A stretch of 64,000 nucleotides of DNA from Nitrospiraceae bacterium (GTDB taxonomy: Bacteria; Nitrospirota; Nitrospiria; Nitrospirales; Nitrospiraceae): positions 558,001-622,000 of the forward strand of contig JAHBWI010000002.1 of the NCBI GenBank assembly GCA_019637075.1. Direction: 5' to 3'. Position 1 is the first letter of the stretch; every line of letters begins with the position of its first letter. A program made the position numbers and the translations under genes. A model generated the notes under the pieces. That model searched no databases, was not told where the DNA came from, and was given only the letters and a program-made list of their open reading frames with translations. Below, piece by piece: positions 32,332-39,079 of this stretch.

Positions 32332-32874
32332 TCAATCCGCCCTTGCCCTCTGTGGAGCTTGTGCCAGGATGAGTCCATCCGCGACATTGGCGCTTCTTTG
32401 CCGTCTCCGATAGAGCATCTGCAGAAGACCATCCGCCGACAACCGTCCCGGACCGTGCAGAACCAAATACAAGAACAGAATTCCCCAATAAAACGCCTCT
32501 TGGAGCGCGGCCGCTGATAGTTGGCCGTAGGATGTCACCGCCACAATGTTCAGGCCGAACAACGAGAGCGCCGCCCATCGTCCGGCGAGGCCGATCGCCA
32601 GCAGGAACGAACCGCCCAATTCAACGGCGGTGGCCAGGTAGGCTGCAATCTCCGGCGGCAGGACCGGCACATCGTAGACCATCGTGAAGAGCATGACGGT
32701 GGACATCCAACTGGATAACTTGACCATGCCTCCCTTCCAAAAAATTTGCGCCAAGTAGAGACGGACCGATAGGTCGAAGAACGGCAACAAAGATTCCAGT
32801 CCCAAGCTCAATCGACCGTGCAGGAGCGCGACACGCTTGACTGCGCGCGAAAAGAATCCATCGTGTGTTGTCAT
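32332..32874 (-). CDS. DoxX-family membrane protein of the bufferin operon
   Basis: 180 residues with four predicted membrane helices. DoxX pattern: LLPFFDLSVRLYLAQIFWKGGMVKLSSW, LATAVELGGSFLLAIGLAGRWAALSLFGLNIVAVTSY. Start overlaps the bufC stop as ATGA, giving translational coupling. DoxX-like proteins are frequent fourth members of DUF692/DUF2063/DUF2282 operons; their role is not settled (possibly quinone-linked or metal-linked membrane function). Confidence 0.85.
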   Translation of the reverse strand: MTTHDGFFSRAVKRVALLHGRLSLGLESLLPFFDLSVRLYLAQIFWKGGMVKLSSWMSTVMLFTMVYDVPVLPPEIAAYLATAVELGGSFLLAIGLAGRWAALSLFGLNIVAVTSYGQLSAAALQEAFYWGILFLYLVLHGPGRLSADGLLQMLYRRRQRSANVADGLILAQAPQRARAD

Positions 32875-33647
32875 GCCCGCACCTCCATCTCAACGCCACC
32901 CAACAGGCCCAACTGGAGGATGAATGCCATGAAACGCGAGAAATCAAACTCGCGGTCTCCCTGTAGGGCGATCTGCTCCAATTCGGCCGCAGTTTTTCGC
33001 TCGGCTATGGCTTCCAGCAATCGGTAGTCAAGCGCTGCAAGCGCTTTCACGTGGATGGCCCCTCCGGCCCTCGCGACAGCTACGCCCGTCTCCTCGACAT
33101 CGAGGGGCAGGTCGGCGTGCTTGTTTGCCGAAGCCTCCGCCTGGAACGCGAACCAGAGACGATGGACCGGTCGCGAGAGGCGCACCAGTCGAACCGTTGG
33201 GCTGAGGACAAGGATGACTCGCGATGGATCGGCTGAAGCGGCGGTCGCGAGTTGATCGTAGGATATCGGCGGAGCATCGGCCCCCTGATGCACGTCATGA
33301 CAGGCCCATTCCAATCGCGCGAGTTCGACCAGCAGGCCGGGAACCTGTAATTCACGCAGCAGTGCCGGGAGATGCCGTCCATAAGCAAACAGGTCGCCGC
33401 TGGCCGACGGGTATCGTGTGAGATAGCCACGCGCGAGAAAGCCAAAATACCGAGGCCCGACGAACCGGCGCAGAACCGGGTAAGTGACGCTGAGCACCTG
33501 CGTGTAGTTGGTGCGGATCAAGCGGCGATAGAGCGCCACACCGCGTAGGGATGAGCCGCCGGATACGATCGTGTCCGCCACCGCGTTGTATTTCCCCTCA
33601 GTCATCCCTTTGGTAAAAGCCTCCTGAATCTCACGAAGCCGGAACAT
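32871..33647 (-). CDS. bufC: BufC-like DUF2063 protein (MNIO partner)
   Basis: 258 residues from the ATG at 33647 (GGAGG five bases upstream; an in-frame TTG at 33659 is less likely). The N-terminal half is the DUF2063 domain (LREIQEAFTKGMT...LYRRLIRTNYTQVLSVTYPVLRRFVGPRYFGFLARGYLTRYPSASGDL). It is thought to guide the precursor peptide to the DUF692 enzyme. It overlaps bufB by 17 bases and doxX by four. Known role: partner in maturation of copper-binding bufferins. Confidence 0.85.
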   Translation of the reverse strand: MFRLREIQEAFTKGMTEGKYNAVADTIVSGGSSLRGVALYRRLIRTNYTQVLSVTYPVLRRFVGPRYFGFLARGYLTRYPSASGDLFAYGRHLPALLRELQVPGLLVELARLEWACHDVHQGADAPPISYDQLATAASADPSRVILVLSPTVRLVRLSRPVHRLWFAFQAEASANKHADLPLDVEETGVAVARAGGAIHVKALAALDYRLLEAIAERKTAAELEQIALQGDREFDFSRFMAFILQLGLLGGVEMEVRA

Positions 33648-34476
33648 AGCAACCTCCAAGCATCGCGTCCGCCTGCTTGGCCTGATCGACCAGGACAGAC
33701 AGCGGCGGGATGTTGGTATCCCATTCGATCAACGTCGGGCGCGGCCCGAAACGATGAATCGCCCACTGATAGAGGCCCCAGACTTCCGAATAGACCGCCT
33801 CGCCATGGGTATCAATGAGCCAACCCCCGAAACGATCGAACCCTGCCAGATGGATTTCCCAGACGGCCTCGTCCGGTAGTGCGTCCAGCAACTCGAACGG
33901 ATCCAGATGAAAATTGACCGCGTTCACATAGACGTTATTCAAATCGAGGAGAATCCCGCAGCCGGTCCGTTTGGCTGTCTCAGCCAGAAACTCCCCTTCC
34001 GGGATCGTGCAGTCACGCCAGGTCAGATACCGCGTGATGTTTTCGATCAGGAGGGGGCGTCGAAGAAACTCCTGCGCCTCAGTGATCCGCCGGCAGACAT
34101 GGTTCAGGCTTTCTTCGGTCAAGGGCAATGGGAGGAGTTCATTGAGGAACCGCCCGCCGACGGAACTCCACGAGAGATGCTCCGACACGAACGCCGGTTC
34201 ATATCGGTCGATCGCGTTCTTATATTTCGCAAGATGGGTCCGGTCGAGCGGATCGGCGGATCCCAACGAGAGGCTGACCCCGTGAAAACTCAATGGATAC
34301 TGGGATCTGATCCGCTCGAGGATGCGAAGCGGCGCGCCGCCCTCGCCGAAATAGTTCTCCGGATGGGTTTCCATCCAAGCGACCGCTGGAGTCGAATCCA
34401 GAATCTCCCGAAAATGCTGCGACCGCAGCCCGATCCCGGCCTGAGCCGGGATCGGGGTGGAATGTGAGCAAGACAT
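33631..34476 (-). CDS. bufB: BufB-like DUF692 multinuclear iron oxidase (MNIO)
   Basis: 281 residues, normal for DUF692. Conserved metal-ligand blocks are readable: ETHPENYFG, SFHGVSLSLG, SEHLSW, LLIENITRY, LLDLNNVYVNA, EIHLAGF, DTHGEAV and LIEWDTNIP. MNIO enzymes modify Cys residues of precursor peptides, in bufferins to thiooxazoles that bind copper. It starts 11 bases after the bufA stop. The precursor BufA is immediately upstream, so the substrate is clear from context. Confidence 0.92.
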   Translation of the reverse strand: MSCSHSTPIPAQAGIGLRSQHFREILDSTPAVAWMETHPENYFGEGGAPLRILERIRSQYPLSFHGVSLSLGSADPLDRTHLAKYKNAIDRYEPAFVSEHLSWSSVGGRFLNELLPLPLTEESLNHVCRRITEAQEFLRRPLLIENITRYLTWRDCTIPEGEFLAETAKRTGCGILLDLNNVYVNAVNFHLDPFELLDALPDEAVWEIHLAGFDRFGGWLIDTHGEAVYSEVWGLYQWAIHRFGPRPTLIEWDTNIPPLSVLVDQAKQADAMLGGCYVPAS

Positions 34477-34487
34477 CGCCGTCCGCC

Positions 34488-34823
34488 CTACATCTTCTTC
34501 ATCATCATGTCTTTCATCTTGGCCAAATCATCCTTGGTGACGGCCAACACCGTGCCCTTCGCGATCTTGGCGCAAAGGCCTTTCGGCAGAAACACATAGG
34601 AATCGGCTTCATTGTCGGTCTTGGCCATACCGACACAGGAATGGAGACTGGTCTTGACCGCGCAATCATTCATGCCGGCCTTGGCGACGCCGCCGCAGGC
34701 TTCCCAGCCGCTGGGCAATTCCGGCACCTTGGGCTCAGCACTCGCCGCTTCGGCCCCGGCCAAACTCAAGGCCACCAACAATGCGGACTGCACCACAGCA
34801 CTCTTCTTGGTCTTGGCATTCAT
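34488..34823 (-). CDS. bufA: BufA-type bufferin precursor (DUF2282)
   Basis: 111 residues from the ATG at 34823 (GAGGAG upstream). Sec signal peptide to about residue 29 (ALLVALSLAGAEAASA), then the DUF2282 core with four cysteines: C43 (WEACGGVAKAG), C54 (MNDC), C63 (LHSCVG) and C84 (PKGLCAKI). These are the modification sites in bufferin 1 peptides. A Lys/Met-rich tail ends the protein. First gene of the bufABC-doxX operon; likely exported to buffer copper or another soft metal in the periplasm. Confidence 0.9.
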   Translation of the reverse strand: MNAKTKKSAVVQSALLVALSLAGAEAASAEPKVPELPSGWEACGGVAKAGMNDCAVKTSLHSCVGMAKTDNEADSYVFLPKGLCAKIAKGTVLAVTKDDLAKMKDMMMKKM

Positions 34824-35041
34824 CGAAATCTCCTCATTAGGCTTCATGACATTGTGAGACACACTCGATATTGAACCTGTGCGCATCGTGACGGATTTAG
34901 GGCTCGGTCATGTGAATCCCCCTTTCTGGGGTGTAGGACGTCTCATCGGCTTCGCTCAGCCTACGACCAAGCTCTGTGAAGCCACTACAGCCCAGGCCCG
35001 CTCGATAGACCAACCAAGAAGAAGACCGAACGGCGCGCGGC

Positions 35042-35167: not shown

Positions 35168-35866
35168 CCTCGTTCCTCCTTTGTGAGAGGCCCCCTCGCA
35201 ACATCACGCTGTCTCTGCGCAGACAACTGTCCCAGCAAGCGATGGTGTGGCTGACTGTATCGGCATCGAGCCGGGCAGTCTGTGAGCTGTGTTACAGTTG
35301 GAGCGAGGGGAGCAGCGAAAGGTTCTGCGTAGGGCACCGGCCGGAATCGTCGCGCGACCCCAGCCGGATCACCGGCTGTCTTCAGGCAACAGTGTCAGTC
35401 TTCGCCTGCCACGCCTGCGGCGCATGAGCGATGCGATTCAGATAGTCGCTCAATGTTTCAGCGAGACGAGCGTGAGCGCATCCAACAGGTGCGCTGAGCA
35501 CAGCCGGCCGCGCAAAATGGTCGAGATGCTGTTCCGGCACCCACCCCCAATGACGCAGGATCGACATCACCAATGTCCTGAGCGCATTGAGCTTGCGATT
35601 CGAAAGGGATGTCCGACATTGAGGCGCAAACCGTTCAGAAGTTTGCACGAAAGCATCAAGATGGGATCGGCTCGCGGACTAACACGAACGAATCGTTTCT
35701 TCTGAACGCCTGATAGGAACCGCCTATTCAGATTGCTGTATCGGTTTTTCCCTCCAAGTTTCTGTAAGCCATCTCACAGATCCCTTCGGCAGTCTCACGC
35801 TAGAGTAGGCACTCCAGAAGAAGTCACCGCGAGGGAATATTCTCTCTTCATTGAAAGGAGTGCAGC
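35168..35866. other. Mostly non-coding region with one weak small frame
   Basis: About 700 bases. Apart from a possible 61-codon frame on the minus strand (35382-35567) I see no gene. CTGTAAGCCATCTCACAG near 35762 is a weak inverted repeat upstream of the DsrE gene. No tRNA-like fold. Confidence 0.4.
35382..35567 (-). CDS. Possible small protein, 61 residues
   Basis: Frame opening MSILRHWGWVPEQHLDHFAR and ending WQAKTDTVA, with AGGA eight bases before the ATG and codon choice like the neighbours. No family recognised, no signal or membrane segment. It may be a real cytoplasmic peptide or a degraded end of a lost gene. Confidence 0.3.
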   Translation of the reverse strand: MSILRHWGWVPEQHLDHFARPAVLSAPVGCAHARLAETLSDYLNRIAHAPQAWQAKTDTVA

Positions 35867-36223
35867 ATATCCAAAGTCACGATTGTGGTTCTGGCGGATA
35901 CGGAGACCCATGAAAGCCTGGGGCGTGTCGTGAACGCGCTGGAAGCGGTCAAGGAGTTCAAGGATAGCCACGACGATGTGCGGCTGATTTTCGACGGAGC
36001 CGGGCCAAAGTGGATTCCCGAATTGGAGAAGCCTGACCACAAGATTCATGCGCTCTATGAGGCGGTGAAAGATCGGATCGCCGGCGCGTGCGAGTTCTGC
36101 GCCGGAGCGTTCGGGGTCAAGGACAAGGTCGTGGCGTGCGGGGTGAAGCTAGTAGGTGAGTACAACGGACATCCAAGTTTCCGTTTACTGATCTCGCAAG
36201 GCTATCAAGTCATTACCTTCTGA
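35867..36223 (+). CDS. DsrE-like sulfur-relay-type protein, apparent ATA start
   Basis: 118 residues if begun at ATA (35867-35869). The first strand, SKVTIVVLADTETHESLGR, is required by the DsrE/DsrF fold and lies before the first standard start (GTG 35885). A stop (TGA 35852-35854) closes the frame upstream, and AAAGGAG sits six bases before ATA. The protein keeps ACEFCAGAFGVKDKV with two Cys. DsrE-type proteins carry sulfur or interact with thiols. It lies upstream of the arsM-arsS cluster. Confidence 0.7.
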   Translation: MSKVTIVVLADTETHESLGRVVNALEAVKEFKDSHDDVRLIFDGAGPKWIPELEKPDHKIHALYEAVKDRIAGACEFCAGAFGVKDKVVACGVKLVGEYNGHPSFRLLISQGYQVITF

Positions 36224-36451: not shown

Positions 36452-37642
36452 ATGGCCACCGACGACATCACCAAGAAAGTCAGCGAACGATACGCCCGCG
36501 CTGCCTCGACGGGCGAGCAGATGTGCTGCCCCACCAGTTACGACATGGGGCATCTCAAAACCTTCATTCCCGAAGAAGTGCTCAAGATTTCGTACGGTTG
36601 CGGCACCCCGGCGGGACTACAGACCGTCCACGCGGGCGAGCGCGTGCTGGATATCGGATCTGGCGGCGGCATCGACTGCTTCGAAGCGTCCCGGCTCGTA
36701 GGCCCCACCGGTGCGGTGATCGGCATCGACATGACGGACACGATGCTGGAGATCGCGCGCCGCAATGCACCGATCGTAGCGTCCAATCTCGGTTATGCCG
36801 TCTCCAACGTCGAGTTCCGCAAAGGCATGGCGGACGCGATGCCGGTCGAGAACGACACGATCGATCTCATCATTTCCAATTGCGTGATCAACCTGGCGCC
36901 CGACAAGCGGAACGTCTTCACGGAGATGTTCCGCGTCTCCAAGCCGGGCGGCCGGTTCACGATCTCGGACATCGTGTCGGATCAGACCGTGCCGCAATAT
37001 CTGATTCACGATGCGGGCAAATGGGGAGACTGCCTGTCCGGCGCGTTGACCCTGACCGACTATATGAACGGGATGGCCCAAGCCGGATTCCGAGGAATCC
37101 ACCTGCTGAAGTCGTCTCCCTGGCAGGTCATCGACGGGATTCATTTCTTTTCGGTCACGTTGACCGGGTACAAACTGCCTCCGGCAAATGCCGGGACCGC
37201 CCTGCGTCATGCCACGCTCGCCGGCCCCTTCAGCCAGGCCGTCGATGAACAAGGCACTGTGTACCACCGCGGCATCCCACAGCCGATCGATGCCGACACG
37301 GCCATGCTCTTGAGCCAGCCGCCCCTCGCGCCCCATTTTGTGCTGTCGGCCGAACCGCAGCCGCTCAATCGGAATGATTCACGCTGGGCTTCGGTGCTGC
37401 CGGCGGATGAGCCCTGCGTGTGGCGCGGCGACTTCGCGCTCTTGGCCGGTCCTTTCCTCGAAGTCGCCGACGACGACCAACATCGGTACCGTCGCGGGGA
37501 GCCACTGGAGATCTGCTCGAAGACCGTCGCGGTCTTGGGAGATACCCGTTATGCCCGGCACTTTGCGATCATCAATCGGGCCGGACAAGAGGTGAGCGGC
37601 GAAGCCGTGAGCTGCGCGCCCGGAGGAGCCTGTTGTCCGTGA
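36452..37642 (+). CDS. arsM: Arsenite methyltransferase-like protein (ArsM, long form)
   Basis: 396 residues. SAM motif I VLDIGSGGGIDC; conserved cysteines in [22 protein letters not shown] and WGDCLSGAL fit the As(III)-binding Cys set of ArsM enzymes. Beyond residue about 260 there is an extra domain ending in a Cys-rich tail (SCAPGGACCP). It is coupled to arsR (GTGA overlap) and arsS, so it probably supplies dimethylated arsenic for arsenosugar-type synthesis. AGGAAGG lies upstream. Confidence 0.85.
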   Translation: MATDDITKKVSERYARAASTGEQMCCPTSYDMGHLKTFIPEEVLKISYGCGTPAGLQTVHAGERVLDIGSGGGIDCFEASRLVGPTGAVIGIDMTDTMLEIARRNAPIVASNLGYAVSNVEFRKGMADAMPVENDTIDLIISNCVINLAPDKRNVFTEMFRVSKPGGRFTISDIVSDQTVPQYLIHDAGKWGDCLSGALTLTDYMNGMAQAGFRGIHLLKSSPWQVIDGIHFFSVTLTGYKLPPANAGTALRHATLAGPFSQAVDEQGTVYHRGIPQPIDADTAMLLSQPPLAPHFVLSAEPQPLNRNDSRWASVLPADEPCVWRGDFALLAGPFLEVADDDQHRYRRGEPLEICSKTVAVLGDTRYARHFAIINRAGQEVSGEAVSCAPGGACCP

Positions 37643-38041: not shown

Positions 38042-39079
38042 ATGGCACAGTCGCTCCTGGCACAAGGCAATCCGCTGGCCGCTCCCGCGGAACAGCTGAA
38101 GCACTTACACGAAATCAACGGCTGCCCGCCGTTCGACGCACTGATCCAGCGCCACGGCCTCTTTCCGTTGCACGCGACCGGCATTTCGGTCCTGCAGATC
38201 AACGTCGGGAAGCTGTGCAACCAGGCCTGCCGCCACTGTCATGTGGATGCCGGACCGGACCGAACCGAACAGATGTCCAAGGAAACGGCCGAACAGTGCA
38301 TCGCCGCCTTGGCACAGACCGACATTCCGACCCTCGACATCACCGGGGGCGCGCCGGAGCTGAACCAGAATTTTCGTTGGCTGGTCGAACAGGCTCGTGC
38401 GCTCAACCGACAGGTGATGGATCGCTGCAATCTGTCGGTGTTGTTGTTGCCCTCTCAGGCGGATCTGGCCGAATTCCTGGCGACGCATCGGGTGGAAGTC
38501 GTCGCCTCACTCCCCTCGTTCCGCGCCGTGCAGACCGACGCACAGCGGGGCGACGGAATCTTCGACAAGTCAATTGAAGGATTGCGCCTGCTCAATCATT
38601 TGGGATACGGCCGTGAGGGCAGCGGGTTGGTATTGAATCTGGTCCACAACCCCGTCGGCGCCTTCCTCCCTCCCAAGCAGGAAGCGATCGAGGCGCAATT
38701 CCGCAAAGAATTACTCGCCAAGCACGGCATCGTGTTCAATCACCTGTACACCATCACGAACATGCCGGTGAGCCGCTTTTTGGAATTTTTGGTGGAGAGC
38801 GGCAATTTCGAAGGTTATATGGAGCGCTTGGCGAATGCGTTCAATCCCGCGGCTGCGGCCGGGGTCATGTGCCGCTATACACTCTCAGTGGGATGGGACG
38901 GGAAGCTCTACGATTGCGATTTCAACCAGATGTTGGACCTTCCAGTACATTCCGACGTCCCAACGCATATTCGGGACTTCGATCCGGTTCGGTTGCAACA
39001 CCGTCGCATCATCACGCGTAACCATTGCTATGGCTGCACGGCCGGCTCCGGCTCTTCGTGCGGCGGCGCAGTCACGTAG
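38042..39079 (+). CDS. arsS: Arsenosugar-type radical SAM protein ArsS
   Basis: 345 residues. Radical SAM cluster C59-xxx-C63-xx-C66 (LCNQACRHCHVDAGP), then ITGGAPELNQNFRWLVEQA. The C-terminal DUF3641 domain ends with a Cys-rich tail (LYDCDFNQML...CYGCTAGSGSSCGG), matching ArsS. Known role: adding a 5'-deoxyadenosyl group to dimethylarsinous acid on the way to arsenosugars. It follows arsM and arsR in the same direction. Confidence 0.9.
   Translation: MAQSLLAQGNPLAAPAEQLKHLHEINGCPPFDALIQRHGLFPLHATGISVLQINVGKLCNQACRHCHVDAGPDRTEQMSKETAEQCIAALAQTDIPTLDITGGAPELNQNFRWLVEQARALNRQVMDRCNLSVLLLPSQADLAEFLATHRVEVVASLPSFRAVQTDAQRGDGIFDKSIEGLRLLNHLGYGREGSGLVLNLVHNPVGAFLPPKQEAIEAQFRKELLAKHGIVFNHLYTITNMPVSRFLEFLVESGNFEGYMERLANAFNPAAAAGVMCRYTLSVGWDGKLYDCDFNQMLDLPVHSDVPTHIRDFDPVRLQHRRIITRNHCYGCTAGSGSSCGGAVT

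Follow-up and report, generated by a model that had tools for sequence, protein, structure and literature searches.

A small DsrE/DsrF-like gene, of a sulfur-metabolism type, in the window, by which is meant the whole 64,000-nucleotide stretch analyzed, appears to begin with ATA at the codon where its relatives carry ATG. The chance that this reflects a real, lineage-specific ATG-to-ATA substitution leaving a weak and probably leaky AUA start is put at about even. Under this explanation, one G-to-A change at 35869 would have turned the ATG into ATA in this lineage, the conserved AAAGGAG would still put the ribosome over the altered codon, and the initiator tRNA could pair with AUA through its first two positions. 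Since the ribosome site is kept and such pairing is available, the protein would probably still be made from the same first residue in smaller amounts, making the change a down-mutation and not a clean knockout. Both the reality of the base A at 35869 and initiation at AUA in this organism are here inferred.

The start region described in an earlier note on this DNA proved exact to the base, including the TGA that closes the frame upstream, the AAAGGAG, and the ATA TCC AAA GTC that follows it after six bases (TGCAGC) (Table 1). Past the ATA the frame stays open for 117 codons to a TGA at 36221-36223, and in a search of this frame for in-frame ATG, GTG, or TTG codons, the first to be found was a GTG at 35885-35887. 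With its six-base spacing, AAAGGAG forms a ribosome site at the proper distance from the codon at the true start position. The Shine-Dalgarno sequence, AAGGAGTG, is not extended (it is not GGAGGTG) and is identical to that of ATG-bearing relatives, offering no compensation for a weak codon. No Rfam element and no consensus sigma-70 promoter were found in the leader, and the predicted folding of the initiation region was no more stable than that of shuffled sequences (z 1.0), giving no sign of a structure that would hide or expose the start. A second GTG, at 35860, was rejected as a start because it is out of frame.

Table 1. Coordinates of the features discussed, in positions of the window
Feature	Position	Strand	Basis or remark
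DsrE/DsrF-like gene	35867..36223	+	118 codons from ATA plus stop; open frame, Pfam DsrE match, predicted DsrE fold
Start codon ATA, aligned to relatives' ATG	35867..35869	+	Alignment of relatives' starts
Shine-Dalgarno AAAGGAG	35854..35860	+	Sequence; same site precedes ATG in relatives
In-frame TGA closing the frame upstream	35852..35854	+	Sequence; common to many relatives
GTG, first ordinary start-like codon, rejected as start	35885..35887	+	Without Shine-Dalgarno; not kept as GTG in relatives
RNase Y gene (rny)	53675 down to 52107; start codon 53673-53675	-	ATT behind AAGGGAGGTG
DUF2282 / MbnB-TglH-ChrH-type cluster	33631-34886	-	Divergent from dsrE-like gene
arsM-like methyltransferase	36452-37642		Downstream of dsrE-like gene
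DUF3641 radical-SAM protein, preceded by ArsR-type regulator and arsM-like gene	38042-39079		

A scan of the genome collection for the dsrE-like gene returned 36 loci, mostly from Nitrospira, and a family-wide search gave matches in 84 of 175 genomes, approximately half of the family being without the gene. Among relatives at least 75% identical, all 33 distinct sequences have ATG at the codon aligned with the ATA of the window. The same holds for 43 of the 46 distinct relatives overall, an agreement beyond chance; in the remaining three, at 59 to 72% identity, the start is displaced by one to three codons. ATA was found at this position in none of the 46, and the non-AUG codon is thus not conserved. 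The relatives with ATG have the same ribosome site before the start and often the same in-frame TGA, and in several of them the leader is alike (tgaaaggagtgcagcATGtccaaagtc in loci L011, L025, L048, and L049 versus tgaaaggagtgcagcATAtccaaagtc in the window). Plasmid records yielded only distant homologues of the gene, below 60% identity. Because ATG occupies the aligned codon in relatives and the leader is common, 35867 is the ancestral and authentic start position and the window carries an ATG-to-ATA change, G to A at 35869. The comparison with relatives had been proposed in the earlier note, and its outcome matches the alternative offered there, a recent ATG-to-ATA change. Also supported is the view that the gene is arranged for translation from the ATA.

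That ATG is found in every close relative, that a single genome has the ATA, and that the frame appears fully functional would all be expected if the true base were G and the start a normal ATG, the A having arisen through an error of sequencing or assembly or from a mixture of strains. The contamination estimate of 4.94% points the same way. We regard such an error as somewhat unlikely, given an assembly of 22 contigs with a completeness of 100 in which RNase Y, infC, and the neighboring arsenic genes are intact, with no sign of error in the parts examined.

A real change might instead have silenced the gene, leaving a very young pseudogene without useful initiation at AUA. Its age and any decay were judged from pairwise dN/dS and from private residues. 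The frame contains no stops and no frameshifts; pairwise dN/dS against relatives ranged from 0.02 to 0.11 where dS was finite, and the mean for the window gene, 0.068, lies within the 0.039 to 0.077 of the relatives, so that relaxed constraint was not found. The protein nevertheless has the highest number of private residues among 34 sequences (6 of 117), two of them (A5T and Q39R) in columns where the other 33 do not vary, which favors the pseudogene. As RNase Y of the same genome also has many private residues for its set (16 of 526), those of the DsrE-like protein show no clear acceleration in these alignments and would fit an isolated lineage. An intact frame is no bar to a very recent loss of function. 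The gene also appears dispensable in the family and its loss tolerated, since about half of the genomes are without it and frameshifts or stops disrupt some extra copies (L078:2749-3100, L079:1970-2316, and L077:2167-2699, in genomes G131, G124, and G017). Each of those three genomes has an intact copy elsewhere, however, whereas the window gene is the only copy in its genome. With the Shine-Dalgarno sequence also intact and AUA not a null start in published cases, a silent gene is considered unlikely, even though a fresh loss would be a serious rival to a weak AUA start.

The match of the product to the Pfam DsrE profile (PF02635) is marginal, at 22.8 bits against a cutoff of 22.7, and covers residues 2 to 117 of the protein and positions 2 to 116 of the 116 in the profile. 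The AlphaFold model, numbered with Ser as residue 1, has a mean pLDDT of 94.4 and the alpha/beta fold of DsrE. Its closest PDB entries in Foldseek were 3mc3 (TM score normalized by query, 0.70), 2pd2 (0.67), and 2hy5 chain B, from DsrEFH (0.64), with which it has in common the overall fold and a length of about 117 residues, although sequence identity to these solved structures is only about 14 to 18%. A sequence-level search of the PDB matched nothing relevant. Together, a profile score just past the cutoff and the predicted fold support membership in the DsrE family. As regards the sulfur-carrying cysteine expected of the family, a pair, C74-x-x-C77, is invariant among the 30 aligned sequences of the protein's own relatives. 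The model places beta-1 at residues 2 to 7, as the earlier note had supposed in having the first strand encoded from the ATA onward.

In this numbering the GTG at 35885 is residue 6, and it is very improbable that translation starts there or at another codon to give a protein six residues shorter: GTG is an accepted start, and automatic gene callers would have no other choice here, but this one has no ribosome site, is a different codon in relatives, and would cost residues 1 to 5. In the alignment K2 and A9 are invariant, and V3, A4, and I5 are nearly so. The earlier note was right about the missing ribosome site and, in the main, about the strand, as a start at this GTG would take away most of beta-1 and leave two of its residues.

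Initiation at AUA has precedents. In Staphylococcus aureus, infC, ccpN, and citZ start with AUA, and AUA reporters gave about 10% of the AUG level, with ccpN reaching up to 30% in rich medium (PMC13009471). In Escherichia coli, protein continues to be made from an rpoS gene changed from ATG to ATA, at levels reduced up to 5-fold (PMC12864459); E. coli reporter data cited in the same paper place AUA at or below about 1% of AUG, which counts against a leaky start in the dsrE-like gene. The known AUA, AUU, and AUC starts (infC; S. aureus ccpN, cvfC1, and citZ [PMC13009471]) resemble the dsrE-like case in having AU plus another base at the true start position, preceded by a good Shine-Dalgarno sequence, with a lower yield expected. 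They differ in that infC, ccpN, and cvfC1 combine conservation across species with an extended Shine-Dalgarno sequence, whereas the ATA of the dsrE-like gene was found in one genome and has an ordinary site. The closest parallel is the AUA of citZ, which is confined to one laboratory strain lineage of S. aureus (PMC13009471). The E. coli rpoS change is likewise a single G-to-A substitution in the start codon, the rest of the gene being intact; in contrast to the dsrE-like case, it arose in laboratory cultivation, and the reduced protein was measured there.

To obtain a base rate, codons of AT plus another base behind a strong Shine-Dalgarno sequence were scanned over 464 kb, comprising the window and 400 kb of the same contig. 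Many noncoding matches were returned, and 35867 was the only ATA to head a recognized conserved gene, as judged by eye. The RNase Y gene of the window was found to have ATT at its start. Across 89 genomes, drawn from the family with a few from the order and class, the rny start position was ATT in 68, ATG in 16, and another codon in five. GGTG was present in the Shine-Dalgarno sequence of all 68 genomes with ATT versus two of the 16 with ATG, and in most of the ATT genomes an in-frame GTG lies inside the Shine-Dalgarno sequence. This GTG was rejected as the start on several grounds. Four genomes (L131, L132, L135, and L161) keep the ATT with the GTG shifted out of frame and have no ordinary in-frame start within four codons upstream; the triplet is always ATT (68/68) and never ATC, though ATC is the commoner isoleucine codon (23 ATC and 15 ATT in the rny of this genome); and in 16 genomes ATG takes its place in the alignment. 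Another four (L149, L155, L170, and L177) are ambiguous, since a GTG or TTG immediately follows the ATT. It is thus likely, from these alignments, that rny begins with AUU and that this start is conserved across the family. No paper reporting an AUU start for RNase Y was found in the open-licence literature.

Non-AUG starts of infC are a known class in many bacteria. In this family, ATC behind GAGGTG was found in all 30 members examined (L191 and L192 to L220), of which L191 is the genome's own infC (G000, contig 3, near 70137). In this genome the start regions of both infC (ATC) and rny (ATT) are conserved. The earlier note had called non-AUG starts of this kind very rare, a statement to be qualified for a family with 30/30 infC genes at ATC and 68/89 rny genes at ATT, and in view of the AUA starts documented in S. 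aureus and E. coli. The rny and infC cases show that non-AUG starts are conserved in this family and illustrate how a selected one looks, combining conservation with an extended ribosome site; the dsrE-like ATA has neither property. The same two features, a codon that is not conserved and a site that is not extended, argue against a selected, regulatory AUA in the dsrE-like gene.

A broader proposal is that Nitrospiraceae keep infC (AUC), rny (AUU), and here the dsrE-like gene (AUA) under weak starts read against discrimination by IF3, the AUA being used and regulatory. We consider this decidedly doubtful; if it were true, the state of the initiation factors in the cell would set the level of RNase Y and here also that of the DsrE-like protein. 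The conserved AUU of rny is the better-supported non-AUG start and the stronger lead, with more consequence: throughout a family of nitrite-oxidizing bacteria, RNase Y translation may be limited at the initiation step. The dsrE-like gene offers a clean example from nature of one altered start codon in a gene that is conserved in other respects. Gene callers generally propose no ATA or ATT starts, and annotation therefore shortens or misses genes that have them.

The dsrE-like gene sits between a divergent DUF2282 / MbnB-TglH-ChrH-type cluster and an arsM-like methyltransferase gene. In relatives (L016, L017/L070, L071, and L074) dsrE likewise immediately precedes arsM and the DUF3641 gene, and the recurrence of this order hints at a possible role for the protein near arsenic methylation. 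The divergent genes at 32332-34886, on the minus strand, encode a DUF2282 protein, an enzyme of the MbnB/TglH/ChrH family, a further open reading frame, and a DoxX protein; this looks like a metal-related modified-peptide cluster, and it is largely kept beside dsrE in relatives. A candidate small open reading frame of 88 amino acids was also identified at 35382-35648 on the minus strand, with translated matches of 42 to 51% identity that stand upstream of dsrE in many relatives.
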